This document shows, one piece after another, positions 9,607 to 24,407 of a stretch of DNA of 64,000 nucleotides. The stretch lies in NCBI RefSeq assembly GCF_030623445.1, contig NZ_CP130613.1, positions 1,178,001 through 1,242,000 on the forward strand. The letters are read 5' to 3'. Both the position numbers and the translations under genes were made by a program. The first letter of the stretch is position 1. Every line of letters starts with the position of its first letter. The DNA comes from Pseudogemmatithrix spongiicola. Lineage in GTDB: Bacteria; Gemmatimonadota; Gemmatimonadetes; Gemmatimonadales; Gemmatimonadaceae. The notes under the pieces were generated by a model that had not been told where the DNA came from, did not search any database, and saw only the letters and a program-made list of their open reading frames with translations.

Positions 9607-9631
9607 CGTGACGTCTGCGCGCGACGGGCGC

Positions 9632-11089
9632 TCAGGCGCCCGTGCGCATCCCCTGCAGGTGGGTCACGGCACGGGTGACGCGGGCGAGCGTGCGCTCGCG
9701 CCCGAGCAGCGCCATCACTTCGAAGATGCCGGGCGATGCCGCCGAGCCCACGAGCGCGACGCGCAGTGGCTGCAGCAGCTTGCCGGCGCCGACGCCCTTG
9801 GCCTCGGCGAGCTGGCGCATCGCCGGCTCCATCGTGGCTTCGTCGAACGGCTCCAATGAACGCAGCGTCTCGCCGCAGGCCTCGAGCAGCGCCTGTGCGG
9901 CGGCGGGGTCCTTCCACTGCTTGGCGACGGCGTCCGCCTCGTAGGCGAAATCGTCGGTGAAGTAGGGCGTAGACTGGGCGACGAGTTCGTCCGTCAGACG
10001 CGCGCGCACGCGCAGCAACTCGAGCAGCTTGTGATACCAGGCGGTGTTGGCGTCGAGCCACGCGTCCGTCGTGAGGCCGGCCGCCACGAGCGGGCCGCGC
10101 AGCAGCGCCGCCGCCTCGGCGATCGGCATCTTCGCGAGGTGCTGGCCGTTCATCCACTCGAGCTTGGCCGGGTCGAACACCGCGGCTTTCTTGAGCAGGC
10201 CATCGGCGCTGAAGCCCTCGATGAGCTGCTCGAGCGTCATCACTTCGTCGAAGTCGCCGCCGGGCGACCAGCCGAGCAGCGCGAGGAAGTTGACCATTGC
10301 CTGCGGCAGGATGCCCTTGTGCTGGTAGTCGCCGACGGCGGTGGCGCCGTGGCGCTTGGAGAGCTTCTTGCCGTCCGTGCCGTGGATCATCGGCAGGTGC
10401 GCGAACTGCGGCAGCGGCGCGCCGAGGGCCTGGTAGAGCAGGATCTGCTTCGGCGTGTTCGAGATGTGGTCGTCGCCGCGCATCACGAGCGTGATGCGCA
10501 TCGCGATGTCGTCGGAGACCACGGCGTGGTTGTAGATCGGCGTGGCGTCCGAGCGGAGGATGACGAAGTCGTCGATGTCCTTGTTCGGGAAGCTGATGCG
10601 GCCGTGGACGAGATCTTCCCAAGCAGTGTCGCCGTCAGGCACGCGGAAGCGCAGCACGAAGGGCGTGCCGGCGGCGACGCGGCGCGCGATTTCGTCCTGC
10701 GGGAGCTTGTCGCAGCGGCGGTCGTAGGCGAAGGCACCGCCCGCCGCCTCGGCAGCGGCGCGGCGCTGGGCGATCTCTTCGGTGGTGCAGAAGCAGCGAT
10801 AGACCTTGCCCGCGTCGAGCAGCTTCTGCGCGTCCGCGCGATGCCGTTCGAGGTTTGCGCCTTGGAAGACGACCTCTTCGTCCCAGTCGAGGCCCAGCCA
10901 GCGCATGCCCTCGAAGATGGCGCGCGTGGAGTCGTCGGTGGAGCGGGCCTTGTCCGTATCCTCGACGCGCAGCAAGAACTGGCCGCCGAGCTTGCGGGCG
11001 AGGAGCCAATTGAAGAGCGCGGTGCGGGCGCCGCCGACATGCAGATAGCCGGTGGGGCTGGGGGCGAAGCGGAGGCGGGGCGCAGACAA
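9632..11089 (-). CDS. gltX: Glutamyl-tRNA synthetase
   Basis: 485 residues, normal length for bacterial GluRS. The class I signature appears as FAPSPTGYLHVGGART (8-23), where HVGG replaces HIGH. The second catalytic motif KLSKR is at 242-246, preceded by the substrate region RGDDHISNTPKQ. The C-terminal helical anticodon-binding domain fills about 320-485. The enzyme charges tRNA-Glu in the cytoplasm; whether it also charges tRNA-Gln is undetermined. It lies downstream of tRNA-Ser(GCT) and upstream of the LexA-like gene on the same strand. Confidence 0.97.
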   Translation of the reverse strand: MSAPRLRFAPSPTGYLHVGGARTALFNWLLARKLGGQFLLRVEDTDKARSTDDSTRAIFEGMRWLGLDWDEEVVFQGANLERHRADAQKLLDAGKVYRCFCTTEEIAQRRAAAEAAGGAFAYDRRCDKLPQDEIARRVAAGTPFVLRFRVPDGDTAWEDLVHGRISFPNKDIDDFVILRSDATPIYNHAVVSDDIAMRITLVMRGDDHISNTPKQILLYQALGAPLPQFAHLPMIHGTDGKKLSKRHGATAVGDYQHKGILPQAMVNFLALLGWSPGGDFDEVMTLEQLIEGFSADGLLKKAAVFDPAKLEWMNGQHLAKMPIAEAAALLRGPLVAAGLTTDAWLDANTAWYHKLLELLRVRARLTDELVAQSTPYFTDDFAYEADAVAKQWKDPAAAQALLEACGETLRSLEPFDEATMEPAMRQLAEAKGVGAGKLLQPLRVALVGSAASPGIFEVMALLGRERTLARVTRAVTHLQGMRTGA

Positions 11090-12012: not shown

Positions 12013-12095
12013 CGGAGGGTACAGGATTCGAACCTGTAAGTCCTTGCGGACGGCGGTTTTCAAGACCGCTGCAATAGCCATTCTGCCAACCCTCC
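12013..12095 (-). tRNA. tRNA-Ser(TGA), integration target of the adjacent element
   Basis: 83 nt including discriminator G. GGAGGGT pairs with ACCCTCC. The anticodon stem-loop GCGGTCTTGAAAACCGC gives anticodon TGA. A variable arm GTCCGCAAGGAC and a T-arm ACAGGTTCGAATCCTGT are present. The 5' half (12060-12095) is identical to a second copy at 24372-24407, so the present gene is a chimera: its 3' half is chromosomal and its 5' half and upstream DNA come from the integrated element. The CCA is not encoded. Confidence 0.96.
12060..12095. repeat. attL: 36-bp direct repeat, 5' half of tRNA-Ser(TGA)
   Basis: Identical base for base to 24372-24407. It covers the tRNA 5' end through the anticodon loop. 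The boundary at 12060 lies at the anticodon, so strand exchange was probably in or near the anticodon loop, a known tyrosine-integrase target position. Confidence 0.92.
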
Positions 12096-12097
12096 AA

Positions 12098-12131
12098 GCG
12101 ATTACGAAGCAACACTTTACCGCGTAATCGC
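12098..12131. repeat. 9-bp inverted repeat just inside attL
   Basis: GCGATTACG at 12098-12106 and CGTAATCGC at 12123-12131, separated by 16 bp. On the minus strand these arms contain a weak promoter-like pair for the tRNA (TTACGC, 17 bp, TAATCG). It could be an integrase or excisionase site, a substitute tRNA promoter, or both. Confidence 0.5.
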
Positions 12132-12150
12132 GAGTGTCGTGCGCGCGGGT

Positions 12151-12171
12151 CACCGGGGACAAATCCGGGGG
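12151..12171. repeat. Candidate arm-type integrase site, left end
   Basis: CACCGGGGACAAATCCGGGG at 12151-12170 closely matches the repeated GGGGAC units near the right end of the element (24212-24250). Similar short direct repeats at both ends of an integrated element are typical of arm sites bound by the N-terminal domain of tyrosine integrases. No binding evidence is available. Confidence 0.45.
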
Positions 12172-12260
12172 CGGAACGCCGTGGCGATCCGGGGCCCGCT
12201 CGCACTGGCTTCATCCTATATGGGTGTGTGCCCGGCGGCTACCCTCGGCGGGGTGCTGCC

Positions 12261-12806
12261 ATGAACGCCGCGACCATCATCGACGATCCTGAACTCGATG
12301 GCGACCGCGACCCGCAGTCGGCGCTCACGCTGGTGGAGGCGGAGTCGCTCGGGTACGTCTCGCACGACCAGCTGCGGACGTTGCATCAGTGTCTCGGGAC
12401 GCCGGAGCGCGAGGCGCAGCGCACGCGGATCCTGGAGATCGCGCAGGCGCGATACAACCTTGAACGGCGCCGCTGGCCGGTGTGCGCCATTGGTCCGCTG
12501 CTGCCGGGTCCGCATGGGCTCCTGATCCCGGTGGAGATCCGCGGCCTTGCGAAGGCGACCCGGGTCCGGGAACAGCTCGAGACGACGGAACAGCTGCGCC
12601 CGCTCGCGCGCCACGAGCGCCAGGCGTTGCGCGCGCTCAAGCGGAACGGCGTGCGTCGGGTCGGCAATGATAGCGCGGATACCGCGGCGCTCGAGCGGGC
12701 GCGCTTGAAGCGCCTGTCGAAAGCGGCGAAGCGGGCACGCGCCGCGCAGGCCGGGATGGCGCGCGCGCGGGCGCGACAGGCCTCGGCGCAGGAGGGCGCA
12801 TGCTGA
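12261..12806 (+). CDS. Hypothetical element-encoded protein
   Basis: 181 residues from the ATG at 12261; GTG 12228 in the same frame is an alternative. The first 100 residues are mixed charged sequence with SLGYVSHDQLRTLHQ and a hydrophobic patch VCAIGPLLPGPHGLLIPVEI. The last 60 are a very basic helix (RLKRLSKAAKRARAAQAGMARARARQ) suited to nucleic-acid binding. No family is recognised. It is the first gene inside attL and overlaps the next gene by 7 nt, so it heads a four-gene run. Confidence 0.6.
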   Translation: MNAATIIDDPELDGDRDPQSALTLVEAESLGYVSHDQLRTLHQCLGTPEREAQRTRILEIAQARYNLERRRWPVCAIGPLLPGPHGLLIPVEIRGLAKATRVREQLETTEQLRPLARHERQALRALKRNGVRRVGNDSADTAALERARLKRLSKAAKRARAAQAGMARARARQASAQEGAC

Positions 12807-13072
12807 CGACGCTCCTGCAGGAGCTCGGCCGCGTGCCGTGGTGGACGCTGCTGCTGGTGCTCAACCTCATCGCCGGGCTGCTCGCGGCGTTCACCCAGGT
12901 GCCGGCGATGAACCACCGCCGCGCCGTCGTCCGGTGGAGCGGCTATGCGCTCGGGATGATCGTGTGCGCGATGGTGGGCATGTTCGTGCTGCTCGCCTAC
13001 GGCGTGATGGTGCAGCTCGAGTCGATGGCGTTCCGCGCGACCGTGGGTGCGCCGCGGCGTAGGATCCATTGA
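12800..13072 (+). CDS. Small two-helix membrane protein (holin-like topology)
   Basis: 90 residues with a good GGAGGG ribosome-binding site 4 nt before the ATG. Two hydrophobic segments, WWTLLLVLNLIAGLLAAF (about 14-31) and YALGMIVCAMVGMFVLLAYGVM (about 49-70), are separated by a short basic loop. Size, topology and position in a phage-like element are compatible with a holin or an accessory lysis protein, but no family motif proves this. Its stop overlaps the next start (TGATG). Confidence 0.6.
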   Translation: MLTTLLQELGRVPWWTLLLVLNLIAGLLAAFTQVPAMNHRRAVVRWSGYALGMIVCAMVGMFVLLAYGVMVQLESMAFRATVGAPRRRIH

Positions 13073-13347
13073 TGCGCGCACACGGCTGGAGGATCGCCGG
13101 GTTGCTCGTCGCCCTTGCGTGCGTGGTCGGGGTCGTGCACGTCGAGGGGCCACTGGCGCTCGTCGCCGCGATCGCCGCGGTCATCGCGGTTGCGCACGGC
13201 CAGGTCCTCGCGCAGGCCCTGCTCGACTCGCTCAATCCGCGGACGGACTCGGAAGCGAAGTATCTGCGCCGCGTGGGGCGCGACATCCTCGAACGGCAGC
13301 GTCAGCAGGCGGTGCAGGATGCGGCACGCGCGGAGCGCCGCGCATGA
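13072..13347 (+). CDS. Small membrane protein with charged C-terminal helix
   Basis: 91 residues. A hydrophobic N-terminal half (IAGLLVALACVVGVVHVEG and ALVAAIAAVIAVAHG) gives one long or two short membrane helices. The remaining 45 residues are a charged helix, LNPRTDSEAKYLRRVGRDILERQRQQ. It may be a spanin-like or accessory lysis protein, but there is no specific evidence. Starts and stops overlap on both sides, so it is translated with its neighbours. Confidence 0.55.
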   Translation: MRAHGWRIAGLLVALACVVGVVHVEGPLALVAAIAAVIAVAHGQVLAQALLDSLNPRTDSEAKYLRRVGRDILERQRQQAVQDAARAERRA

Positions 13348-13739
13348 CCGGGATCCCGCGCCCCATCGTCCAGACGGAGCGGGCGTGCGTGCTCTGCGGC
13401 ACGGCGCTCGTGATCACCTTCGATGCGCTCAACCGCCCGCGGCATCGGTGCCCGACGTGCCATGGCACGGTGACGACGCCGATCGACGCGGGCACGGTCG
13501 AACGCGTCGCGACGCCGACGCCCGCGTTGGCGAAGTTGGCGCCGAGCCGACAGCAGCTGCAGCGGCTCGTGCTGACCGCGCTGCCGGTGTTCGCGCCCGG
13601 TGTGTCGCGACCCGCCGCGGCCGCACGGCATTGCGATCGCTGCGGCACGGCGCTGCCGCGGCAGCACGGACGGGGACGGCCGCGCGTGCGCTGCGCCGAT
13701 CGGGACGCGTGCGCCGGGCGCACGCGGGGGGCGGCGTGA
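13344..13739 (+). CDS. Double zinc-ribbon hypothetical protein
   Basis: 131 residues from the ATG at 13344, which overlaps the upstream stop. Two Cys clusters, CVLCG paired with CPTC in the first 45 residues and CDRCG paired with RCADRDAC near the C-terminus, look like two separate zinc ribbons joined by a Pro/Ala-rich linker. Such proteins often bind nucleic acid or act as small phage regulators; the role is unknown here. It follows the two membrane proteins without a gap. Confidence 0.6.
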   Translation: MTGIPRPIVQTERACVLCGTALVITFDALNRPRHRCPTCHGTVTTPIDAGTVERVATPTPALAKLAPSRQQLQRLVLTALPVFAPGVSRPAAAARHCDRCGTALPRQHGRGRPRVRCADRDACAGRTRGAA

Positions 13740-14096
13740 CGGGGCGCGCTGCGGTGCGGATCCTCAACGGCGCGCAGGGCCGCGGTATCGCGCGCGCGCT
13801 GGCGGCGGTGACGGCGGGTGTCCTCGCGGACGCACCGCCGATCGCGGCCGACCAAGTCGCATCACCGACGTGCCGGCGGGCCCTGCGCCTACTCGTCTTG
13901 GAACGAAGCACCGCTGTTCCCTGTCGGAGCACGCAAGGCGTACGACTCGACCGTCGCTCGCGTGACGGACGAGGTCCGGACCGGGTCGGTTGGCAAGAGC
14001 ATCAGCCTGCTCTTGCCGCTGCAGATCGAGGGCGTGGCGAATGAATACACGTTCAAGTTCTCGGTCGACTCAGTGTCGGTCCGCCGCGTTCCATAG
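13736..14096 (+). pseudogene. Remnant gene, two reading frames
   Basis: A frame opening with GTG at 13736 (overlapping the zinc-ribbon stop) gives plausible sequence for about 45 codons (VTGRAAVRILNGAQGRGIAR). It then becomes an Arg/Ser-rich out-of-frame reading. Another frame continues with natural-looking protein (WNEAPLFPVGARKAYDSTVA, then LLLPLQIEGVANEYTFKF) to a stop at 14096. This suggests a frameshift or a deletion junction near 13,860-13,880 that fused the start of one gene to the end of another. Neither part is recognised. An intact 102-residue protein ending at 14044 is the alternative reading. Confidence 0.45.
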
Positions 14097-14141
14097 TCGC
14101 GTGCGACACCGTCGCATTCCGCCGATGTTCCAATCCCGTCG

Positions 14142-14832
14142 ATGATGCAGAATTTTCACGTAGCGGCCGACACTCTCCTCAGCTGGGGCGCGCTGATGCG
14201 CCCGACCAATCCGGCCGAGTTCTGGGAGATGGCCGGGGCCGTTCTCACGCTCGCGGTGCTGGTGGTCACGGGCTTCGGCCTCAAGGCTATCGCGGTGGCG
14301 AAGCAAGACATTCGCTCCGGGCGGAGCGTGAAACCAAGTCGCGCGCAATCGATCTGTGACGTGAGATGCGCGAAGTGCTCTTCCCGATGCACGGCGTGTG
14401 GCTTGCGCGGCTCCGCGTCGCGAACATCGAGCTCTTCATCAAGGACGCTACGCACGTCACGTTCGATGAGACGGAGTCGAAGTCGAAGTTGAAGGACGCG
14501 ACCGCGTGGGTGGGCGCGTTGCCACCGGAACTGAAGCATGAGGCGACCGCCCTAATGAACACGCTTGAATGCTGGGCGATGTGCTTCACGCACGGCCTGG
14601 CGGACGCGAAGGTATCTGAGACGCCGTGCGCCCCCGCCTATTGCCAGATGGTCGTCTCGCTGTACCCCTGCACCCTGTATCACCGACACCTCAGCCCGAC
14701 TATCGGCCCGTATCGCACCTCGTAAACTTGTTTGAGAGTTGGTACGCGCCGAAGACGCAGGCCACGCTCCTCGCCCAGCTCGAACGGGCCAAGAAGCTCG
14801 CAACGCTGCCGGACCCAATCGGAACGAAATAG
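14142..14832 (+). pseudogene. Broken gene for a membrane-anchored hypothetical protein
   Basis: Protein-like sequence passes through all three frames. MMQNFHVAADTLLSWGALMR and a membrane helix (GAVLTLAVLVVTGFGLKAIAV) start at 14142. After a shift near 14,310 the sequence continues as ERETKSRAIDL, is broken by TGA at 14357, then goes on as REMREVLFPMHGVWLARLRV until about 14,620. After a third shift it ends LVNLFESWYAPKTQATLLAQ to 14832. At least two frameshifts and one nonsense codon are needed, so it is not functional. Joined, it would be about 225 residues; the family is unknown. Confidence 0.7.
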
Positions 14833-14922
14833 CCGGCTGGCGCGCATAATCACCAGAGGTCGCTCGCCCTCTCCACAACGAGGTACCTATCAAGACGATC
14901 GGATTCTAAGGCGCCCTGCGCT

Positions 14923-14957
14923 GCCGACGGGCCCCGCCAATAGCGGGGCCCGTCGGC
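14923..14957. terminator. Perfect 15-bp GC-rich hairpin
   Basis: GCCGACGGGCCCCGC at 14923-14937 and its exact reverse complement at 14943-14957, with a 5-nt loop CAATA, followed on the plus strand by GTTTCTGG. It lies 90 nt after the broken gene and is a probable intrinsic terminator, though the T-tract is short. It could also be a leftover terminal structure of an element. Confidence 0.65.
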
Positions 14958-15036
14958 GTTTCTGGTCGTGCTGAGTAACGACTCCCCGCGCCGGCGGGCC
15001 AGATCTTCCTGCGCGCAACCACGGGTCGGCGACCCC

Positions 15037-15068
15037 AAGTCGTATAAGCTGTTGTAATACAACGACTT
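15037..15068. promoter_or_regulatory. Nested inverted repeats in an AT-richer spacer
   Basis: AAGTCGT (15037-15043) pairs with ACGACTT (15062-15068), and inside it GTTGTA-A-TACAAC (15051-15063) forms a second dyad. The 395-bp stretch 14833-15226 contains no supported gene; it holds the 15-bp hairpin, this nested dyad and the 15150-15163 palindrome. It is a likely control region for the pair that starts at 15227. Confidence 0.4.
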
Positions 15069-15149
15069 GAGGGTTTGGATAACCGACCAATGTTCATGCA
15101 CTGGTTTGCGGCCCCCCCCAAGTGCGCGGAAACCTAAGTGCGAGGCTTC

Positions 15150-15163
15150 GTTGCCATGGCAAC
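15150..15163. promoter_or_regulatory. 14-bp perfect palindrome, candidate operator
   Basis: GTTGCCATGGCAAC is a perfect dyad 63 bp before the start of the small protein at 15227. Palindromes at this distance from a small-protein/nuclease pair are common autoregulatory operators of toxin-antitoxin loci, but the DNA-binding protein is not identified. Confidence 0.45.
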
Positions 15164-15226
15164 AGATTGATTGCAGCGGCGGAACCGCTCGGCAGCATGC
15201 TGGGGGACCCAGGCAGGAGAACGAGG

Positions 15227-15436
15227 ATGCCGACGCCGGTCCCACCCCAGGAGTTGAAACACGAGACGGCGCCGGTGAGCGTCCGCCGGTTCCATTATCC
15301 GCTGACGTCGCGGCCGCGGGACGTCGCACTCTATTCGCTTGTGCGCGACGCCGTCGGCACGACCCGCCTACGCTGGGATGGCGTTCGGCCGCTCCACCGG
15401 ATCCCGGCCGAGCATGCTGCGACGTTGCGAGGATGA
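15227..15436 (+). CDS. Small protein upstream of the PIN-like gene, possible antitoxin
   Basis: 69 residues. The ATG at 15227 was chosen because AGGAGAACGAGG precedes it. Its sequence, ELKHETAPVSVRRFHYPLTS then RPRDVALYSLVRDAVGTTRL, has no recognised DNA-binding motif. The stop is 18 nt before the start of the PIN-like gene. Gene order (small first, nuclease second), spacing and a palindrome upstream fit a type II toxin-antitoxin layout. The assignment is inference only. Confidence 0.5.
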   Translation: MPTPVPPQELKHETAPVSVRRFHYPLTSRPRDVALYSLVRDAVGTTRLRWDGVRPLHRIPAEHAATLRG

Positions 15437-15454
15437 GCACGGATGGAGGAAGTG

Positions 15455-16372
15455 ATGAAGGCTGACTCGAAGGAGGACCTCCGCGCGCCGCGGCGCCCCG
15501 CCCTCGGCTACGCGTTCCTCGACAACAGCGCGCTGTGGCAGCTGCGGCGCGCGGAGATTCGTGACCGCCTCTGGGAGCGCCTCGAGTACCGCGGCATGAC
15601 GTTGATGCTGACCGAACTCAACGTCCTGCAGGCCTTGGCCGCTGGCCCGGTGCGCGGTCGCGAGCTGTTGGAGATCCTCACCGGCGTCGCGCGGAGCCAG
15701 TGGGTCCTGCCTGCACCAGACGCATTCCTGCGCGACGCCATCACGCAGGTGACATCGGCGACGATCTCGCTGTCGGCTGAGCTGTTCGAGCTCCGGCGCG
15801 CAGACGCTATCGAAGACTTCGAAGCCGAAGCCCGGCGCGCCAAGGCGTGGACGGCGCGCGCCGACGCCGCCTACCGGGATCACCTGCGGCAACACCAGGC
15901 AAGCATCCGTCAGGGACTGAGAGCGCGGGGCGTGCGGCCGACGATCGACCTGCTCCCCGCCTTCAACGCGGACTGGCCATCGATGCGCAACTACGGCGAG
16001 CTGCGGCAGCACCTCTGGACGCTCCTCGGTTTCGCCGGCGATGCACCCGACGCGCTGGAGCAGCGCCTGCCGCCGCTGCGCATCGAGCTCGCGGCCCAGG
16101 GCGTCGGACTCTTCGAGCATGCAATTGCATACGACGCCGGCAAGCCGACCGAGCGCACCGACTTGCTGCAGCTGTGCTATCTCGGCATGTCGCAGTACGC
16201 GCTGCTCGTGACGAACGACCACGGCCAACAGCGCGCAGCGAATACGATCCTCCAGTTACCGGGCTTCGAAGGGATGGCGCTCTCGCTCGACCAGCTGCTC
16301 GCTCCCACCGGCGACAAGTTACCTAGGCCATCACAGCAAGGCGCCCAAGGTGCGCGTGATGGCGAGCTATAG
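15455..16372 (+). CDS. PIN-like nuclease-domain protein with a long insertion
   Basis: 305 residues from the ATG at 15455, which has GGAGGA 4 nt upstream; ATG 15443 lacks a site. The N-terminal GYAFLDNSALWQL (Asp23) and LTELNVLQAL (Glu54), and the C-terminal TDLLQLCYLGMSQ (Asp236) with LLVTNDHGQQRAAN (Asp255), match the spaced acidic residues and the 'TND' strand of PIN nucleases. About 150 mainly helical residues separate the two halves, longer than in VapC. A metal-dependent RNase toxin is the best guess. It forms a unit with the 69-residue protein and ends 15 bp from a convergent gene. Confidence 0.6.
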   Translation: MKADSKEDLRAPRRPALGYAFLDNSALWQLRRAEIRDRLWERLEYRGMTLMLTELNVLQALAAGPVRGRELLEILTGVARSQWVLPAPDAFLRDAITQVTSATISLSAELFELRRADAIEDFEAEARRAKAWTARADAAYRDHLRQHQASIRQGLRARGVRPTIDLLPAFNADWPSMRNYGELRQHLWTLLGFAGDAPDALEQRLPPLRIELAAQGVGLFEHAIAYDAGKPTERTDLLQLCYLGMSQYALLVTNDHGQQRAANTILQLPGFEGMALSLDQLLAPTGDKLPRPSQQGAQGARDGEL

Positions 16373-16387
16373 CACTCCCGGCGCCCC

Positions 16388-17536
16388 CTACGACGCAGAT
16401 ACTGGTAGCGGCGCCCAGTCGCATTCGTCGAGTTGCAGCTCGAACTTGCGGACCTCGAGCGTCGGCCGTGCGGATGCGCCGACCACGTGGCCGACGCCGG
16501 CGATGGTTTCGCCGACGCTGATGAACTGCGGGTTCTCGCTCCAGTCAGTTGGCAGCTCGATGTCCGCGCAGGCACGGCGCGCAGAAAGGTCTACCACGGT
16601 AACGTAGGCGTGCATCGTTGCCTCAATCGCAACGCGCGTCGGATCGGAAATCCCTCCAGGCGGTGCGATCCACTCCTTGTGCACGAACGCTAGCCAACCG
16701 TTCCGTAGCACTTCGATGGAGATGAGCGCCGGCATCAGCGTCGAGCGCCCAGAGGTATTGGCCACGGGTCGCAGGGCCGCGTCGAGATCCACGGGGATGG
16801 CTCGGCGCGTACGACGAGGCACCACGAAAGAGAATTGCGGTGCAAGCGCCGAGTCAAACACGGAGACAACGTCACTCCACAGCACTGCGGTCACGACATG
16901 GGTCGCGGAGACGCCGACGACCGATCGAGGGAAGGACGCGATGCCGAGCTGGTGCCGAAGCAATGAATCCGGAAGCGGCAACGCGGGCCGTAGTGTGCGC
17001 GAGCCGGGCTCAAGAATGCCGACCGTGGTGAAGGAATCGGGGGATAGCGAGGCCACGATGAGCCTCGACCCGACCGGCCCCAGAGACGAGACAGACCCGA
17101 GGCCGTTCGCGTGCCAGAGGAACTGGCCGTCAGATTGCCGGAACACCGAAACGCGCCGGTTCGTCAGGTCCGTGACCACGAGCGAGTCACGGCCCCACAC
17201 GCTCATTGCAGTTGGCCCGCGGAACTCGCCGGGACCGTCGCCGCTGCGCCCGAACACGCGAAGGAGCGCGCCGTCAGATGCGAACTCCAGCACGCGACGC
17301 TGCACTTGGTCGGTAACAAACGTCCGCCCATCCGGTGCCATATACGCTCGTGAGACTCGAGCAACGTAGATCGTGTCGGACTCAAGCAGCGTGTCCACCG
17401 CGGCGACCCGCGCAACCGGCCGCGCAGTTTCGGGGTCAACGTCTGTCTGGCTACAGGCCGCTGCTGACAGGACGGCCAGCAGACATTGCGTCGCGGCTCG
17501 CAAGGGAATCCACACAGCGGAAGCGGACATTCTCAT
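16388..17536 (-). CDS. Six-bladed beta-propeller (NHL-like) lipoprotein
   Basis: 382 residues from the ATG at 17536. The signal peptide ends in a lipobox LSAAAC (Cys28). The mature part has repeating blade strands, clearest in AYMAPDGRTFVTDQVQRRVL then EFASDGALLRVFGRSGDGPG, DSLVVTDLTNRRVSVF and later VVSVFDSALAPQ, as in NHL or 6-bladed propeller families. It is probably anchored in the envelope and binds a ligand or peptide; no catalytic site is seen. Its start lies inside the end of the preceding lipoprotein gene (86-bp overlap), so the two are coupled. It ends near the convergent PIN-like gene. Confidence 0.72.
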   Translation of the reverse strand: MRMSASAVWIPLRAATQCLLAVLSAAACSQTDVDPETARPVARVAAVDTLLESDTIYVARVSRAYMAPDGRTFVTDQVQRRVLEFASDGALLRVFGRSGDGPGEFRGPTAMSVWGRDSLVVTDLTNRRVSVFRQSDGQFLWHANGLGSVSSLGPVGSRLIVASLSPDSFTTVGILEPGSRTLRPALPLPDSLLRHQLGIASFPRSVVGVSATHVVTAVLWSDVVSVFDSALAPQFSFVVPRRTRRAIPVDLDAALRPVANTSGRSTLMPALISIEVLRNGWLAFVHKEWIAPPGGISDPTRVAIEATMHAYVTVVDLSARRACADIELPTDWSENPQFISVGETIAGVGHVVGASARPTLEVRKFELQLDECDWAPLPVSAS

Positions 17537-17999
17537 AGGCTCGCTTGATGAGGGAGTACGTGCTGATAGGGTCTGCGGCTGAGTCCGATGCTGCAATGAC
17601 CCCGTTCTCGTAGAGCAGCAGCCGCACGCCGCTCGGCGTCTCGCGCGGCCATGGGCGCGGAAGCACGCCGTCGATTGGCAGGCGCATAGGAGCCGCCGCG
17701 CGTTCCTCGCGGACGGACGGCAACCGTCTCCATCGGAATGCCATAGCTGCCGGGGCGCAAGCGCGGAGTTCATCGAACTGCGGCGGCGGTGCCCCGCAAC
17801 CGAAGCACGTGCCCGGTTCAAGGACAACAACAACCAGCGACGGCGGCGCCGGTTCAGGCAAGTGGAGATCGGCGAACGCGGGGAGGTCCGACCCTTTGCT
17901 GCATCCGGCAACGAGAACGACGGCGCAGGTACAGCCAAGCGGACCGAGTGCGCGGAGTAGCCGCGTGACCTGAGTCGGGAACAAGGACAACACTTGCAT
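17451..17999 (-). CDS. Thioredoxin-like lipoprotein with a CxxC motif
   Basis: 182 residues. The signal sequence ends in LVAGC (lipobox Cys33). After SLVVVVLEPG comes CFGC (Cys65 and Cys68) followed by APPPQFDELRA, the strand, redox motif and helix order of thioredoxin-like folds. Later RLLLYENGVIAASDSA resembles the C-terminal hairpin. It may reduce or isomerise disulfides, and its neighbour encodes a Cys-rich exported peptide. The downstream propeller gene starts within it. Fold assignment is moderate; the redox role is inferred. Confidence 0.55.
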   Translation of the reverse strand: MQVLSLFPTQVTRLLRALGPLGCTCAVVLVAGCSKGSDLPAFADLHLPEPAPPSLVVVVLEPGTCFGCGAPPPQFDELRACAPAAMAFRWRRLPSVREERAAAPMRLPIDGVLPRPWPRETPSGVRLLLYENGVIAASDSAADPISTYSLIKRAYENVRFRCVDSLASRDAMSAGRPVSSGL

Positions 18000-18060
18000 A
18001 TAACGGATAAGGGGCGCCGTTTGCGACGAGGGTCTTAGGCGACCCTCGTCGCGGCACGGC

Positions 18061-18249
18061 CTACATCTGGATGATGATGGGTGAGTTGATGACGCAGTTG
18101 CAGACGTTCAGAATGCAACCCTCACAAAAGTCGCCCGGAATCACCTGCAGGGCGTTCGGAGGCGGCAACGGGATCTGCGCCTCTGCCTTGCTCGCCGGCG
18201 CTGGCAAGAACAGGCTGACTGCGAACAGCATGTAGAGCGACTTCTTCAT
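18061..18249 (-). CDS. Small exported Cys-rich peptide precursor
   Basis: 62 residues, with a strong GGAGG site six bases before the ATG at 18249. Residues 1-24 are a clear Sec signal peptide (MKKSLYMLFAVSLFLPAPAS then KAEA). The remaining 38 residues contain Cys42, Cys45, Cys50 and Cys52 in FCEGCILNVCNC and a hydrophobic tail VINSPIIIQM. It begins a minus-strand cassette followed by the CxxC lipoprotein and the beta-propeller lipoprotein. It could be a secreted peptide handled by those two proteins. Similarity to the small leader peptides found beside propeller genes in Bacteroidota is only in layout. Confidence 0.65.
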   Translation of the reverse strand: MKKSLYMLFAVSLFLPAPASKAEAQIPLPPPNALQVIPGDFCEGCILNVCNCVINSPIIIQM

Positions 18250-18389
18250 GTAACCCTCCTGAGAAGATGAAACTCTCGTCGGCGCGAGCGAATCTCCGCC
18301 GACGCGACACGATTGGACGCGGAACCGCACCTGTCAAATCGTGCTAGGTCAATACCGCAGACAACCGTCATCGGAGCGTCACCGGGCGG

Positions 18390-18395
18390 CCTAGG
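18390..18395. repeat. IS481 target-site duplication, left copy
   Basis: CCTAGG, repeated directly at 19430-19435 on the other side of the insertion sequence. The hexamer is itself palindromic, so one or two bases on either side could also be counted in the duplication or the inverted repeat. Confidence 0.8.
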
Positions 18396-19429
18396 TGTCG
18401 GTTCTAAGGACGTTGTTCACGCTGCATGAGGAAGTGGAGCAGCGGGGGGACGCGGCCGAGCGACCGGTGCGGCCGTTCGACGTTGTAGCAATCTAGGAAG
18501 TCGGGTAGCGCCGCGTTGCGGTGGCGGGAGCTGCGGTAGGGCTTCTTGTAGGCCCAGCGGCGGAGCGCGGTCTGGATGAAGCGCTCCGCCTTGCCGTTCG
18601 TCTGCGGGCGGTAGGGCTTGGTGCGCAGGTGCCGGATCCCGTGCGCGGCGAGCATCGCCTGCACAGCGTGGCTGGTGTAGGCCTTCGCGTTGTCGGTCAT
18701 CACGCCGTGGACCGGTATGCCCAACTGTGCAAACCAGCGGTGCGCCGCGTCGAGGAAGCGCGCGCACGCCGCCGCGTCCTGCGTCGGCAGCAGCGCCGCG
18801 TACGCGAGGCGCGTCGCGTCGTCGACCGCGACGTGCAGGTGGTCCTGGCCGAGCCCCCGACGGCGGCCGACCTTCGAGCGGTTGCCGTGCGCGCGGTGGC
18901 CCGCCGCGACGAAGCGGTCGAGCGCCTTCGTGTCGACGTGCAGGAGCTCGCCCGGCGTCTCGCGCTCGTAGCGCGGCCCGCCGGTTGCGCCGGGCCCCTT
19001 CAGCCGGCCTTGGCCCGCGCGCGTCAGGATCCGGCCGACCGTCGAGACCGCGAGCCCGAGTCGCTCCGCGATCTCGGGACCCGTCAGGCGCTTCGCCCGG
19101 AGCCGGAGGATTCGCTCGATCTGCGCGGGCTGCGTCGCGCGCGGCGAGCGCCGCGGCCGCGACGAGCGATCGGCCAGCGCAGCCCAGCCGCCGGCCGCGA
19201 AGCGCCGCAGCCACTTGTACGCCGTGCTCGTGCTGATGTGGAGGGCGGCGGCGACGGCGCGCACCGGTTCGCCGTCGAGGACCACCCGGCGAACGAGCTC
19301 GGCTCGCCCCCAGGCGGTCAATCGCGCATTGTTGTGGATGTTCACTGAGGCCTCTGGCTGAAGGTTGGGTGGCTCGCACCTCCAGCTTCCTCAGTTATGC
19401 CTCAGTGAACAACCTCCTTAGAACCGACA
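18396..19429. mobile_element. IS481-family insertion sequence, complete
   Basis: 1,034 bp bounded by terminal inverted repeats beginning TGTCGGTTCTAAGGA and ending GTTGTTCAC (one mismatch in about 25 bp). It is flanked by the direct repeat CCTAGG at 18390-18395 and 19430-19435. It contains one intact transposase gene. The uninterrupted frame and near-perfect ends suggest a recent insertion. It sits between the exported-peptide cassette and the KTSC operon, and upstream of the peptide gene, whose promoter region it may have changed. Confidence 0.93.
18404..19345 (-). CDS. IS481-family DDE transposase
   Basis: 313 residues. An N-terminal helix-turn-helix region (AVAAALHISTSTAYKWLRRF, about 30-50) and a second one (LTGPEIAERLGLAVSTVGRI) precede an rve-type RNase H-like catalytic core. 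The core has HVDTKAL (first Asp), VMTDNAKAY (second Asp) and NGKAERFIQT (Glu). The full DDE triad is present and the frame is intact, so it is probably active. The stop codon lies inside the left terminal inverted repeat. Confidence 0.95.
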   Translation of the reverse strand: MNIHNNARLTAWGRAELVRRVVLDGEPVRAVAAALHISTSTAYKWLRRFAAGGWAALADRSSRPRRSPRATQPAQIERILRLRAKRLTGPEIAERLGLAVSTVGRILTRAGQGRLKGPGATGGPRYERETPGELLHVDTKALDRFVAAGHRAHGNRSKVGRRRGLGQDHLHVAVDDATRLAYAALLPTQDAAACARFLDAAHRWFAQLGIPVHGVMTDNAKAYTSHAVQAMLAAHGIRHLRTKPYRPQTNGKAERFIQTALRRWAYKKPYRSSRHRNAALPDFLDCYNVERPHRSLGRVPPLLHFLMQREQRP

Positions 19430-19500
19430 CCTAGGCCACTCGCTTGCGCGCGTGCGTGGGTAGCCGCATTGTGGTGCGACGGATTACCCGAGGCTAAGCA

Positions 19501-19911
19501 ATGCTTCTCGCGTTTCCTCGCACGCTCGGCGTCGCCCTACTCCTTGGCCTCTCCGTCGTCGCCGCGCGCGACTTAGAGGCCCAGCGCCGCTGCGTGAAGG
19601 GCAAGCCCTGCGGCAACACGTGCATCGCGCAGAACAGGACCTGCAGGGTCGGGACGCCCCCGGCGAACCCGACGCCACCGTCGACCTCACGTCCTGCGCC
19701 GGCGGCACCGCCGGCGAGCACTGAGGGCGAGGCCAGGGCGTCGGTGCCAGCGACGAGTGGCCCGTGGGTCGCCTCGCGGCGCGGCTCCACCTACTACCGG
19801 AATGGCTGCAGCGGCGGGAACTCACTCGCCGCCCAGAACCGGATCTACTTCAGGACCGAGGAGGAAGCCCAGGCCGCGGGCTACCGACGGTCCTCACAGC
19901 GAGGGTGCTGA
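19501..19911 (+). CDS. Exported Cys-rich protein with Ada-type metal-binding-like tail
   Basis: 136 residues. A signal peptide (MLLAFPRTLGVALLLGLSVV, cleaved about 27) precedes a compact Cys cluster RCVKGKPCGNTCIAQNRTC (Cys31, 37, 41, 48). A Pro/Ala/Thr-rich linker follows. The C-terminal region, STYYRNGCSGGNSLAAQNRI then YFRTEEEAQAAGYRRS, has the layout of the Ada/MTTM metal-binding module. It is the first of three genes joined by overlapping stops and starts. Function is unknown; a secreted metal- or DNA-binding role is possible. Confidence 0.6.
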   Translation: MLLAFPRTLGVALLLGLSVVAARDLEAQRRCVKGKPCGNTCIAQNRTCRVGTPPANPTPPSTSRPAPAAPPASTEGEARASVPATSGPWVASRRGSTYYRNGCSGGNSLAAQNRIYFRTEEEAQAAGYRRSSQRGC

Positions 19912-20144
19912 TGGCGATGGTCCGCTACATCGATCGAGACGGGGACTCGGGGATTCTCGCCTACGAGCTCGGGCCCCACTGGATCCACGTGCAGTTCAAG
20001 GATGGCTCCGTGTACGAGTACACGGACGTCAGCGCCGGCGTGGCGCAGCTGGCGACGATGAAGCGACTGGCCCAGAGCGGCGATGGGCTCAATCGCTTCA
20101 TCAACCTGTACGTGAAGAAGGGCTACTCGCGGAAGGTGCGGTGA
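19911..20144 (+). CDS. KTSC-domain small protein
   Basis: 77 residues. The beta-strand pattern YIDRDGDSGILAYELGPHWI then HVQFKDGSVYEYTDV, ending in a helix with NRFINLYVKKGYSRKV, is the KTSC fold, in which short proteins carry a C-terminal K-x-S-x motif; here the last residues are KKGYSRKVR. KTSC domains occur alone or fused to RNA- or phage-related proteins; their role is not settled. The ATG shares its A with the upstream stop and the stop overlaps the next GTG. Confidence 0.75.
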   Translation: MAMVRYIDRDGDSGILAYELGPHWIHVQFKDGSVYEYTDVSAGVAQLATMKRLAQSGDGLNRFINLYVKKGYSRKVR

Positions 20145-20803
20145 CAGATTCGACCGCAGTTGCGCTCCAGCGCCTTGGAGACTCGCTGCAGATCGTGCTG
20201 TTAGAACGCAGCGTGTTATCAGCTGGCTTGTCAGCGAGTTGGACGGGTGTCGTCGTCGGCCTTCTGGGCGTGCTCTTTGCGGTACTCGCGATTATCACCG
20301 CCTTTGCGTTGTATCGACAGACCAAGGACTTCCACGCTCGTGCCGAGGCGATGGTCGCTGAGTACCGGAATATGGTCGAGCAGGCGTCGGAGGATGCGCG
20401 GCTTTCGGTTGCCACCGCGCTCGACAGCCTCAAGGCGGAGGCGGCAACGGTCACGAAGCGACTCGAAGAGACCAGCAGCAGCCAAGCTGCACAGCGGACA
20501 GAGCTCGAAGACCGACAGCGGCAGATTGAGCAACGGCGTAAGCAACTCGAGGAGCGTGAGGCAGCTCTCGACGCTGCCAGTAGAGCGCGAGCAATCGAGT
20601 TCAACGTTCAGGTGCCGTGGCACGTGAGCAACGCCCGTTCGGCGGCCGCGCTGTCGCAGAAAAGGAACTGGCTGAGCGTCGTTCCTCGAGTCTGTCCCAA
20701 CTGCGGATGGGTTGAGCAGGGTGCTGGCAATCACCCGGTTTCAGTCAAACCAAAGAATTCATGTCCAGACTGCGGCTACGAGTTCTCGAGGCCTGTGCTT
20801 TGA
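20141..20803 (+). CDS. Membrane-anchored coiled-coil protein with C-terminal zinc ribbon
   Basis: 220 residues from the GTG overlapping the KTSC stop. One membrane helix (TGVVVGLLGVLFAVLAIITA, about 33-53) is followed by a coiled coil of about 100 residues (ELEDRQRQIEQRRKQLEERE). The C-terminal zinc ribbon pairs CPNCG with CPDCGYEF. The topology suggests a cytoplasmic sensor tethered to the inner membrane. No family is recognised. It ends the three-gene unit; downstream is an AT-rich stretch with the palindromic operator. Confidence 0.6.
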   Translation: MTDSTAVALQRLGDSLQIVLLERSVLSAGLSASWTGVVVGLLGVLFAVLAIITAFALYRQTKDFHARAEAMVAEYRNMVEQASEDARLSVATALDSLKAEAATVTKRLEETSSSQAAQRTELEDRQRQIEQRRKQLEEREAALDAASRARAIEFNVQVPWHVSNARSAAALSQKRNWLSVVPRVCPNCGWVEQGAGNHPVSVKPKNSCPDCGYEFSRPVL

Positions 20804-20909
20804 CAAACCCGGAACAGCCTTTAACCAAACAAATGCCGAAGGCACAACTCATAGCAAATTCACGACTTAGACTTACGAATATCTCTTGGCGATAGTTGTG
20901 TAGTTGATT

Positions 20910-20931
20910 TTTTACCGCACGTGCGGTAAAA
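20910..20931. promoter_or_regulatory. Perfect 22-bp palindrome, candidate operator
   Basis: TTTTACCGCACGTGCGGTAA and the two final A bases form an unbroken dyad of 11+11 bp. It lies in an AT-rich intergenic stretch 50 bp before the start at 20982. The gene after next encodes an HTH-ImmA protein, the obvious candidate ligand. A role as terminator of the upstream operon is less likely because there is no loop and no following T-run. Confidence 0.65.
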
Positions 20932-20981
20932 TTATGCCCACACGAGTTCACTTCCGGGCATGCGACGCATGAGAGGATGAG

Positions 20982-21641
20982 ATGCAGGAGATCGCACAAC
21001 TTTATCGCGAAGAAGACGCAGACGAACAGTTGCTCCGGATCTTTGGGGTTGACTCCCAGCCGTTCCTAAACGCAGTCGCAAGCGGCTGGCTGCAATGGGC
21101 GAACCGATCTGAGTTCGACGCCCCATCGTTCCCCGGGTCCCTATTGTGGGGCCACACGGTGCGTGCTGAACGCACTCAACTCTCCGAGCGCCGCTGGACC
21201 TGCGACTCCACGGACAACTTTCCGACCTGCATAACTCCAGACGGGAAGATGGCGATTGTTGTCGAGACTGGAGACGAGGAGACGGGAAAGGTGGTGCCTG
21301 GGCGCCGGCCTCGCACGAAGAGCCAGAAAGGCCCACGTACGATGCAGATGGTGAGAGACAACTCTCAACTGCTTCAAGGCGATCTCTTCAGCGCATTCGC
21401 GATGCGCCCGCGCTTGGTGGGTGAAGGACCGCTCCTTTGGGTCCATCTCATCCACCAGCACGGCGGCTTCGTCTACCACGAGATTTCGCTTCCCACGGTG
21501 GCCGACTCCGACAGTCGAATCACCGGCTGGAAGTGTCGGATCATCCTGCCTACGTACCGTAGCGGCAGCGCTCTCTCGAAGCTGACGGCACCGACGCCTG
21601 CTCCCGACATCCAGGTTCAGGTAAAGCGCCGTGCAGGTTGA
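20982..21641 (+). CDS. Unknown partner protein of the HTH-ImmA regulator
   Basis: 219 residues, start at ATG 20982. No signal peptide or membrane helix. It has mixed alpha/beta sequence with conserved-looking blocks LRIFGVDSQPFLNAVASGWL, KMAIVVETGDEETGKVVPGR, SAFAMRPRLVGEGPLLWVHL and ITGWKCRIILPTY. It is not recognised. It overlaps the following HTH-metallopeptidase gene by 11 nt. This suggests a two-gene regulatory or toxin-like module in which the metallopeptidase may act on, or be controlled by, this protein. Base composition is lower in GC than the chromosome outside the element, so recent transfer is likely. Confidence 0.6.
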   Translation: MQEIAQLYREEDADEQLLRIFGVDSQPFLNAVASGWLQWANRSEFDAPSFPGSLLWGHTVRAERTQLSERRWTCDSTDNFPTCITPDGKMAIVVETGDEETGKVVPGRRPRTKSQKGPRTMQMVRDNSQLLQGDLFSAFAMRPRLVGEGPLLWVHLIHQHGGFVYHEISLPTVADSDSRITGWKCRIILPTYRSGSALSKLTAPTPAPDIQVQVKRRAG

Positions 21642-22746
21642 GAGTCGGGCGTTCGAACCAGCACGCCTGCTGCTTGCAAGGCGCCGGAGAGGCCTCAAGC
21701 GCAGCCAGCTCGCAGTATTGGCGGGCCTAAAGCCCCGAACGTTGGCTGCATACGAACTGAGTGAGCGCGAGCCGTCTGACGATGCTCTTGCTCGCCTTCA
21801 GAACGCTCTCGGATTTCCGAGAGAGTTCTTCTTCCGAGGCGCGATTCCTCAGCTCCGCGAAGATGGTGTGGCATTCCGCGCCCTATCCAAGATGACTGCG
21901 CCCCAGAGAGAGAAGGCGCTCGCCGCAGGCGAGCTAGCGTCGGAACTGCTCGAGTGGGCGAAGTCGAGATTTGACCTACCTGCTCCTAACGTTCCCGACT
22001 TGCGCCTTGAGAAGGATCCAGAGACGGCTGCGCTCGCCTTGAGGGCTGCTTGGGGTATGGGAGACAGACCGATCCCGAATCTCATCAAGCTGCTAGAGGC
22101 GCATGGCGTGCGCGTGTTCTCGCTGGTAGAGCATGACCGCGCCCTCGACGGATTCTCATTCTGGCGCGCCGGCGAGCCGTTCATTTTCCTGAACACGCTC
22201 AAGTCCGCGGAGAGGTGTCGATTCGACGCGGCCCACGAACTCGGCCATCTAGTGCTGCATCGCCACGGCGGCGGCGTCGGACCGAACGCGGAGCGCGAGG
22301 CGATGGAGTTTGCGTCGTCTTTTCTCATGCCAAGCTCGAGCGTACGTTCTCACGTAACCGGACCCGTCTCCATCACAGAGCTTCTGCAGGTGAAGCAGTG
22401 GTGGGGAGTTTCGCTCGCTGCTCTCGTGAAGCGCCTCCACGACGTCAAGATCATTAACAACTGGGTCTATCGGGAAACGTTTATGCAGCTCCAAGGCCTC
22501 GGATATCGGGACAACGAGCCGAATGGCATTGTTCGTGAGCACTCGCTGATCTGGCCTCAGATATTCGATGAGATGCGAAAGGAAGGCAGCACACGCGCTG
22601 ACGTCGCCCGACTGCTTGGATGGCCGGTTGAAGAGCTGCAGTCTCTCGTGTTTCAGCTCGTGATCTCGGGACTGTCCGGGGGCAACGCTACTGCGCCGCA
22701 GAATTCAAACAGCGACGCGCGATCGGCGCTGAGCATCCTTCACTGA
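21631..22746 (+). CDS. XRE helix-turn-helix / ImmA-IrrE metallopeptidase fusion
   Basis: 371 residues. The N-terminal XRE DNA-binding domain is LLLARRRRGLKRSQLAVLAG then LKPRTLAAYE (about 13-65). The M78 (ImmA/IrrE) peptidase domain has FLNTLKSAERCRFDAAHELG, with the zinc motif HELGH at 202-206, and the third-ligand helix AEREAMEFASSFLMP (about 220-234). A 130-residue C-terminal extension follows. Proteins with this architecture repress mobile-element or stress genes and cleave a partner regulator. The GTG start overlaps the unknown partner gene. The 22-bp palindrome upstream is the candidate operator. Confidence 0.88.
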   Translation: MQVESRAFEPARLLLARRRRGLKRSQLAVLAGLKPRTLAAYELSEREPSDDALARLQNALGFPREFFFRGAIPQLREDGVAFRALSKMTAPQREKALAAGELASELLEWAKSRFDLPAPNVPDLRLEKDPETAALALRAAWGMGDRPIPNLIKLLEAHGVRVFSLVEHDRALDGFSFWRAGEPFIFLNTLKSAERCRFDAAHELGHLVLHRHGGGVGPNAEREAMEFASSFLMPSSSVRSHVTGPVSITELLQVKQWWGVSLAALVKRLHDVKIINNWVYRETFMQLQGLGYRDNEPNGIVREHSLIWPQIFDEMRKEGSTRADVARLLGWPVEELQSLVFQLVISGLSGGNATAPQNSNSDARSALSILH

Positions 22747-22755
22747 CGAGGATTC

Positions 22756-23353
22756 TCAACTGCAGGCCGTTGCTCCTGCGACCATTCCCAAGACGGCAAC
22801 TGCGGCCGCCCCCGCGGGTCCCGCCGCAACCGCTCCGGCGGCCGCGCCTCTGGCGACGGGACCCGCGTAGCACACGCCGGTGAGCGCGACGCGCCACCAG
22901 CATCGGCGCCCGCGCGCGAGCTGCGTGTCCTGCACGTCGACGAGCGCGCGCGCCGTGCCGAGGACCACCGGCGCGTAGGTCACCGTGAGATCGAGCCCGC
23001 GGATCCGCGCCGCCGCCGTCTGCCGCTCGATCGCCGCGAGCCGGAGCTGCTCCTCCGCGCGCCGCGCGAGCTCCTCGAGCGCGACTGCCATCGCCAGGCT
23101 GTCCCGCCGCACCGCCGCCCGTGCCTCCGCGATCGCGCGGCGCAGCTTCCGCGGCCGCACGCCGCATCGAGTCGAGCCGGGCATCCTTCTCCGCGAGCTC
23201 AACGCGCAGCGAGTCGTTCAGGACCTGCAGCCGGGCCCGGTCGTCCGGATCCGTCGCGCGCACGATCCAGCGCGCGCCGGCGATAACCGAAACGATAACA
23301 AGCGCGGAGGCCGCGACCTGGAGCAGCGGGCCGACCCACGTCCGCCAGCTCAT
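22756..23353 (-). pseudogene. Frameshifted membrane-anchored coiled-coil protein (spanin-like)
   Basis: The start ATG at 23353 overlaps the endolysin stop. The first frame gives MSWRTWVGPLLQVAASALVI then VSVIAGARWIV, a membrane anchor, and ARLQVLNDSLRVELAEKDAR, a coiled coil. Near 23,160-23,175 the protein-like sequence moves to another frame: KLRRAIAEARAAVRRDSLAM, then LTVTYAPVVLGTARA and an Ala/Gly-rich end GAAAVAVLGMVAGATACS. Joined it would be about 198 residues, anchored, coiled and following an endolysin, the usual layout of an inner-membrane spanin or tail-end lysis protein. A sequencing error or programmed frameshift cannot be excluded. Confidence 0.55.
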
Positions 23354-23895
23354 GCGGCCACCTGCGTTCCCGGCGCGATGTCCGCGCCGTACCGTGCCCA
23401 GACGGCCGCGAGGTCTCCGCGCGCGTAGTCCGTGCGGTCCGCCACCCGCGGCGCGATCGAACAGCGCGCCCACTGGTAGTGCGGCACGTCCGGCAGCGTC
23501 GGCCAGTCGCCACCCCAGGCGAGGCCGTGGGGCGTGACGATCGCCGCGACATCCTGCCACCACTGCTCGGGCGCCCCCCAATGTAGCTTTGGGTGGATGA
23601 AGTCCACGGCGAGGCCGTAGCCGTGCCAGCTGCGCAAGGCGCTCGAGGCCTTCGTGACGATGCGTTCGGGCGGGCGCACCTCGCGGCCCTGCGCGTACAA
23701 CCATTCCTGGCGCGCGCGCGAGCGGGAGGTCTCGAAGCGCAAAACCAGCAACCCGGACTCGCGGCACGCGGCTTCCGCGGCCACGATCGCGGCTGCCATG
23801 GCCGGCGCGAGCCGCGTCAGCGAGCGGTCGGCTGGAATCGGCCGCCAGACGCGCGGCGCCGCGACCGCGGCACGTGCGGCAGCTGGCGCGGTCAT
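23350..23895 (-). CDS. M15-type peptidoglycan peptidase (phage endolysin-like)
   Basis: 181 residues from the ATG at 23895. The zinc-peptidase signature SWHGYGLAVDF (Ser89, His91, Asp98) and the later DVPHYQW (His139) match the M15 D-Ala-D-Ala carboxypeptidase / L-Ala-D-Glu endopeptidase group. The preceding LLVLRFETSRSRARQEWLYA is the typical substrate-binding strand-helix. No signal peptide, so release would need a holin, as for phage endolysins. Its start overlaps the stop of a truncated upstream gene and its stop overlaps the spanin-like gene, which is a typical lysis-cassette arrangement. Confidence 0.82.
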   Translation of the reverse strand: MTAPAAARAAVAAPRVWRPIPADRSLTRLAPAMAAAIVAAEAACRESGLLVLRFETSRSRARQEWLYAQGREVRPPERIVTKASSALRSWHGYGLAVDFIHPKLHWGAPEQWWQDVAAIVTPHGLAWGGDWPTLPDVPHYQWARCSIAPRVADRTDYARGDLAAVWARYGADIAPGTQVAA

Positions 23896-24003
23896 CCGTC
23901 GTCGCTCCGGTCCACGAGCGTCTCGCGGTCCGCCGGCGTGTCCGGGATCGCCGGCGCGCGGATCCCCTTCACCGCGGTGCCGATGTGCGGGGCGAGCAGC
24001 TTC
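23892..24003 (-). pseudogene. C-terminal fragment of an upstream phage gene
   Basis: In the minus frame ending at the TGA that overlaps the endolysin start, the last about 36 codons read KLLAPHIGTAVKGIRAPAIP then DTPADRETLVDRSDDG, plausible protein. Upstream of about 24,003 the frame becomes the antisense of the integrase. The fragment is probably what remains of the gene that preceded the endolysin before a deletion joined it to the integrase tail. Evidence is limited to sequence character and the perfect stop/start overlap. Confidence 0.4.
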
Positions 24004-24004
24004 G

Positions 24005-24190
24005 CGGATCCACGACCTCCGCCATTGCGCGGGGCAGTGGGCCAGCGATGCGGGCGAGAGCGACCGGGCGATCGGCCAGCTGCTGCGGCACAGCGACCCG
24101 CGCATGACCGCGCGCTACACGAAGCAGAAGGATGCCCACGCGGCGAGCGCCGCGGTGGGGCGTGTACTCCAGCAAGCGAGGGGGGCGTGA
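24005..24190 (+). pseudogene. Tyrosine integrase, C-terminal remnant
   Basis: 61 codons, RIHDLRHCAGQWASDAGESD through RAIGQLLRHSDPRMTARYTK. It contains HDLRH (box II Arg), LRHSDP (the conserved His) and the catalytic Tyr in TARYT, exactly the end of a XerC/phage integrase catalytic domain. The preceding 250-300 residues, including the first catalytic Arg, are absent. It lies 181 bp from attR in the orientation expected for an element integrase. The missing part explains why the element should now be immobile. Confidence 0.85.
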
Positions 24191-24211
24191 TGCGACCACG
24201 AGCAACACCAC

Positions 24212-24250
24212 TGGGGACCCCGGGGACTACGCCGGGGACGAATCCGGGGA
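24212..24250. repeat. Four GGGGAC direct repeats, candidate arm-type sites, right end
   Basis: GGGGAC occurs at 24212, 24221, 24233 and 24245, at 9-12 bp spacing. The unit CCGGGGACGAATCCGGGGAC strongly resembles CACCGGGGACAAATCCGGGG at 12151-12170. The 318-bp stretch 24191-24507 has no gene; it contains these repeats, attR and the native tRNA promoter. Confidence 0.5.
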
Positions 24251-24371
24251 CGATGCTGCAGGGTTCGGCGTCGATTCGGGGCGATGCGGCATTGACCATC
24301 GCCGGACTCGGCGTGATGCCGCATGGAGTTACGGCATCGGTGCGCGGTGGCGTGGCTGGCGCTGCAGAGTC

Positions 24372-24407
24372 TCAAGACCGCTGCAATAGCCATTCTGCCA
24401 ACCCTCC
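24372..24407. repeat. attR: 36-bp tRNA-Ser 5'-half fragment
   Basis: Exact copy of 12060-12095. On the minus strand it is the first 36 nt of tRNA-Ser(TGA), cut off at the anticodon and running into element DNA. It keeps the native upstream region (24408 onward), so a short useless transcript may still be made. Confidence 0.92.

Follow-up and report, generated by a model that had tools for sequence, protein, structure and literature searches.

A recurrent cassette of an exported four-Cys peptide, a thioredoxin-like lipoprotein, and a beta-propeller lipoprotein on mobile DNA of Gemmatimonadota

Genes and setting of the cassette

The window, i.e. the whole 64,000-nucleotide stretch of Pseudogemmatithrix spongiicola analyzed here, harbors on its minus strand (18249-16388) three genes transcribed in the order peptide, CxxC lipoprotein (hereafter redoxin), and propeller lipoprotein. 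The gene coordinates bear out a sequence-only reading of this DNA in which the three genes shared one orientation, the last two overlapping by 86 bp; the overlap codes for the entire signal peptide of the propeller as far as the lipobox Cys. A search of the region for a sigma-70-like promoter found none.

Table 1. Features of the cassette and its surroundings (positions in the window)
Feature	Position	Strand	Evidence or remark
Genomic island holding the cassette, 12.3 kb	12060..24407		36-bp perfect direct repeats at both ends
NHL-type six-bladed propeller lipoprotein, 382 aa	16388..17536	-	profile, AlphaFold, Foldseek
Redoxin 3' end overlapping propeller signal peptide	17451..17536	-	86 bp
CxxC thioredoxin-like lipoprotein (redoxin), 182 aa, lipobox VAGC, TCFGC	17451..17999	-	sequence and model
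CFGC active-site-like motif (C65, C68)	17796..17807	-	sequence
Hairpin, 12-bp perfect stem, 6-nt loop, no U-run	18023..18052	-	between peptide stop and redoxin; z -6.1
Precursor of the exported Cys-rich peptide, 62 aa with four Cys	18061..18249	-	Sec signal, AEA-Q cleavage site
Predicted mature peptide QIPLPPPNALQVIPGDFCEGCILNVCNCVINSPIIIQM	18064..18177	-	after cleavage between AEA and Q (cleavage site inferred)
Peptide Shine-Dalgarno AGGAGGG, near-perfect	18254..18260	-	sequence
IS481-family insertion element, transposase 18404-19345	18376..19449	-	inverted repeats at both ends

The first gene had been read as a 62-residue secreted precursor with four Cys, an assignment confirmed by its Sec signal, a cleavage site between AEA and Q, and its Shine-Dalgarno sequence. 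The Cys residues are spaced C-x2-C-x4-C-x-C, followed by -x4-PIIIQM. Scans of Pfam, NCBIfam, PHROGs, and PADLOC gave no match for the peptide. The NVEALA profile (PF14055), which as a positive control found its match in Bacteroides ihuae, matched neither the window peptide, nor five relatives scanned, nor anything in this genome. A pairwise search with the window peptide against 99 relatives returned only the peptide itself; it diverges too fast for pairwise search, and hence its relatives were reached through neighboring genes.

The redoxin, previously described as a thioredoxin-like lipoprotein, has a lipobox and a TCFGC motif and models as a ResA/TlpA/CcmG-like thioredoxin fold. Its AlphaFold model (pLDDT 77, with 27 homologs in the alignment) is matched in VIA by DsbE 3gl3 with Z 9.2 and by ResA with Z 9.0 over 117 and 115 residues, respectively, and by CcmG with Z 8.4; the three are among the top-ranked structures. 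Foldseek alone gives a weak match (E 0.02). A cis-Pro-like strand is present, the second Cys is invariant, and the CxxC motif lies at the start of helix 1 in 22 of 27 homologs, the first Cys being absent from the remaining five. Two of the loci lacking this first Cys (L120 and L137) nevertheless keep a peptide, which weakens the idea that its loss entails loss of the peptide and suggests that thiol chemistry may not be required everywhere. For the window redoxin, too, these four resources gave nothing, and six members of its family have no Pfam match, redoxin families included, at E values up to 1. Other genomes of the same genus that were searched yielded no convincing homolog; there was a single weak match (E 0.007), which the profile failed to confirm.

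The third gene had been assigned to an NHL-type propeller lipoprotein. The Pfam family DUF5128, '6-bladed beta-propeller', matches partially with 21.5 bits, just under its curated cut-off of 22.9, and the fold is supported by an AlphaFold model (pLDDT 89.8) whose top PDB match in Foldseek is Bacteroides BF0058 (4raa, E 2.5e-10), with TRIM/Brat NHL domains also retrieved. Cys323 and Cys372 are invariant in 50 propellers and probably form a disulfide. Full-length relatives of the window propeller share 26-30% identity with it.

The sequence-only reading had placed the cassette on mobile DNA, and the direct repeats together with the IS481-family element show that it does lie there. One copy of the repeat (12060-12095) is inside a tRNA-Ser gene and the other is at 24372-24407; 127 bp separate the end of the insertion element from the peptide start, which lies downstream of it. 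The island carries further cargo. Adjacent genes at 20982-22746 (+) match PADLOC RmrT (E 9e-42) and RmrA (E 4e-135), a toxin-antitoxin-like defense pair, and an endolysin-like gene (-) and an integrase C-terminal fragment (+) at 23350-24190, beside the right repeat, are remnants of a prophage or integrative element. Next to the insertion element, 19501-19911 (+) codes for an exported Cys-containing protein (RCVKGKPCGNTCI...) with no Pfam match. A small protein at 19764-20144 (+) matches the phage families phrog_17428 and phrog_24656.

Recurrence of the cassette in Gemmatimonadota

A contig scan with the window propeller alone retrieved no relative. The first matching trio was found in another genus (L051), where the gene order is that of the window and the redoxin and propeller genes overlap too. 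A set of 395 Gemmatimonadota genomes was then searched twice, once with a three-row redoxin profile and once with a five-row propeller profile. The redoxin profile has matches in 29 genomes, and all redoxin neighborhoods fetched except one, at a contig end, adjoin a propeller of the same subfamily. A contig scan with the five-row propeller alignment gave 80 named loci, few of which have a redoxin, and many propellers stand without peptide or redoxin.

Peptides were counted by a blind rule that ignores the redoxin: a frame of 45-140 aa with a signal-like N-terminus, on the same strand and within 900 bp of a strong propeller match, with the pattern C-x2/3-C-x3..12-C-x0/1-C, a spacing picked once the first examples were known. 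Of 30 propellers with a redoxin, 20 have such a peptide; of 40 redoxin-free propellers, 1 has it (Fisher p 3e-9), and this one adjoins a cassette; on the opposite strand, the control counts are 2/30 and 0/40. Inspection adds five loci (L045, L118, L119, L121, and L141), bringing the redoxin loci with a peptide to 25 of 30. A looser scan of the redoxin-free loci produced no further peptide that held up, and its only good candidate (L163) proved to have a redoxin by a better profile.

When 50 propellers are placed on a tree, the presence of the cassette shifts at least 14 times on supported branches. Across 14 independent contrasts, the blind peptide tracks the redoxin in an average of 8.7 and opposes it in none (sign test p about 0.004); with the inspected peptides included, the tally is 12.5 to 0. 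Near-identical propellers are found without redoxin and peptide, and two loci retain only a 3' scrap of the peptide, which indicates that the two genes are gained and lost jointly. The peptide as a companion of propellers in general is rejected: its usual companion is the redoxin. The original proposal of a peptide with envelope redox and binding partners of its own, on mobile DNA, holds at its core, as redoxin homologs usually come with the peptide; it is to be corrected in one point, as propellers lacking a redoxin lack the peptide apart from the one beside a cassette. Propeller and lipoprotein homologs consistently lacking the peptide, or a peptide frame that is not conserved, had been named as grounds against the proposal; what is found is a peptide at most redoxin loci, blind or inspected, with frame and Cys pattern conserved. 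The layout is repeated in many genomes and is thus more than chance. That the peptide frame or its position is accidental, for which the lack of pairwise homologs might speak, is contradicted by the blind enrichment, the tree contrasts, and a common four-Cys alignment, and is highly improbable.

In that alignment of 16 peptides the four Cys are kept nearly throughout and a P-[IV]-[IV]-[IV] tail is frequent; FCEGCILNVCNCVINSPIIIQM of the window is consistent with it. Among 26 listed peptides, 24 carry an even Cys count in the mature part and two carry five Cys, which favors disulfides, although relatedness among the peptides makes the counts less than independent. One group evolves fast with its Cys conserved (dN/dS about 0.4 to 1.3), and purifying selection acts on the close pair L126/L127 (0.18). 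At L123, two differing Cys peptides lie in tandem (4609-4797 and 4828-5031, -) in the interval between redoxin and propeller, with a strong hairpin behind the second. At L128, the frame CTYCGPLDGNVDCKCESPT, within 4990-5700 (-) upstream of the redoxin, has no in-frame signal and is either a peptide remnant or an assembly indel.

The peptide gene is often followed by a hairpin. Defined as a stem of at least 11 pairs and at most -34 kcal/mol within 70 nt of the peptide stop, a threshold chosen with the first examples already seen, it occurs at 7 of 14 loci outside those of the f5/f7 type (the window, L051, L117, L118, L122, L123, and L124); the corresponding rates are 14 in 355 for gene ends (p 2e-6) and 0.4% for random windows. 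The stem sequences vary from locus to locus, and the f5/f7-type loci are without the hairpin. Such a structure may raise peptide mRNA above lipoprotein mRNA or act as a terminator.

Near-identical cassettes, sharing 92-94% of their DNA sequence, are present in genomes of two families and in one Gammaproteobacteria MAG (L256), whose label is possibly due to misbinning. The 91 flanking proteins contain no family of more than three members, and a search of the flanks for an exporter, a protease, or a DsbD/MauE-like protein revealed no conserved further partner. With no common flanking family, no other fixed partner is seen, and the three genes appear self-sufficient.

Other peptide-propeller neighborhoods were observed. 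In the same genome as the window, exported Cys-rich proteins (L052 6069-6515, -; L056 4514-4726, +) adjoin propellers of a more distant type without a redoxin, possibly a second class of peptide-propeller pairs. A Cys-rich secreted peptide at L043 (10193-10366, -) lies immediately upstream of a lipoprotein (9083-10129); two further propellers are nearby, and no redoxin was found.

Candidate roles of the peptide and its partners

The leading and most economical explanation, to which we give about an even chance, is that the cassette is a mobile module of an exported, disulfide-folded peptide, a thiol-disulfide oxidoreductase devoted to it, and a propeller as its partner. The peptide would be exported by Sec and cleaved to about 38 residues, and would form disulfide bonds among its Cys. 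The redoxin, as the putative enzyme for which the peptide is the substrate, would act on the four Cys in the envelope by oxidation, isomerization, or reduction, and the propeller may bind, display, or capture the folded peptide. Propellers free of peptide and redoxin are widespread, and thus peptide binding is not a general propeller role. In peptide-first operons, the hairpin probably lifts peptide mRNA above lipoprotein mRNA, with a corresponding excess of peptide conceivable.

The arrangement also resembles that of methylamine dehydrogenase, in which the Cys-rich light chain MauA and the propeller heavy chain MauB are accompanied by MauD, a thioredoxin-like protein of maturation. In both, a small Cys-rich protein, a beta-propeller protein, and a thioredoxin-like protein occur together, and the peptide could by analogy be the small subunit, in fixed stoichiometry, of an envelope enzyme or complex built around the propeller. 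The matching trio of fold types, the adjacent or overlapping genes, and the tight coupling of redoxin, peptide, and propeller at f5/f7-type loci agree with a subunit. However, MauB is seven-bladed, MauA is much larger and carries tryptophylquinone, and the cassette has neither a conserved Trp nor recurrent enzyme genes; Trp is absent from the mature part in 7 of 26 peptides, that of the window and six others, which argues against a tryptophylquinone cofactor. The propeller often outlasts the loss of peptide and redoxin, and the hairpin suggests unequal amounts. A subunit role is rather unlikely, at perhaps one chance in several.

A bacteriocin-like antagonist, which the sequence-only reading had named as a possibility along with signaling, with one of the lipoproteins protecting the producer and the cassette serving as competition cargo of mobile DNA, is less probable again. 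The cassette is mobile, self-contained, and patchily distributed, the RmrT/RmrA pair shares its island, and fast evolution around conserved Cys in one peptide group is what antagonism might produce; the purifying selection on L126/L127 and the lack of an export system or a recognized immunity gene speak against it. In disulfide bacteriocin loci such as those of sublancin (BdbA/BdbB) and pediocin (PedC), accessory thiol-disulfide oxidoreductases are encoded, and there, as here, the gene of a small exported Cys peptide adjoins that of a dedicated thioredoxin-like protein. The likeness is one of layout. The cassette differs by Sec export, Gram-negative lipoproteins, and a propeller partner, and is without an ABC exporter, a glycosyltransferase, or a known immunity gene.

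ResA/CcmG-like proteins are frequently reductants, and a redoxin of this type might keep the peptide reduced as a metallochaperone-like carrier that hands metal to the propeller or elsewhere. The motif C-x2/3-C...C-x-C, whose four Cys can be aligned across peptides, could chelate metal. His is scarce in the peptides, though, their Cys spacing is variable, and the flanks hold no recurrent metal transport genes, so that a metal carrier is doubtful.

Relation to known systems and significance

Small exported peptides of the NVEALA type are encoded with DUF5128-type exported propellers in Bacteroidota, a layout to which the cassette is akin in its small exported peptide and exported propeller, the latter having its top PDB match in Bacteroides. 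It differs in its Cys pattern, in the lack of an NVEALA match in this genome, and in the redoxin, which was found in 0 of 148 Bacteroidota genomes by a search that had no positive control and hence shows little. In NHLRC2 and SOQ1, too, a Trx-like domain works together with a six-bladed NHL propeller, and in NHLRC2 a cleft is formed by the two (PMC6107167). There the two domains are fused, with a CCINC motif and no peptide; here they are separate lipoproteins with CFxC-type motifs. When assayed for insulin reduction, human NHLRC2 was inactive (PMC6107167), which counts against the disulfide-module explanation. Dedicated oxidoreductases for disulfide peptides and Trx-NHL fusions are thus already known; a literature search for the three-gene layout found nothing relevant.

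Two families are defined by this analysis, the four-Cys peptide and its redoxin; the members scanned match nothing in Pfam or NCBIfam, and both families are now tied to propeller lipoproteins that make up a large orphan family. The cassette also shows that exported peptides are carried by mobile DNA in a phylum that has received little study. To our knowledge, Sec-exported disulfide peptides are hardly studied in Gemmatimonadota. A broader and more tentative proposal, which we hold to be plausible but somewhat less likely than not, is that the cassettes represent a new, horizontally mobile class of such peptides in this phylum, diversifying around a fixed four-Cys frame, with a redoxin of their own for folding and the propeller as receptor, serving extracellular signaling or antagonism. 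If the peptide is the substrate of the redoxin, the cassette would offer a testable handle on the ligands of some propellers and a compact peptide-plus-oxidoreductase pair for studies of disulfide formation in the envelope.
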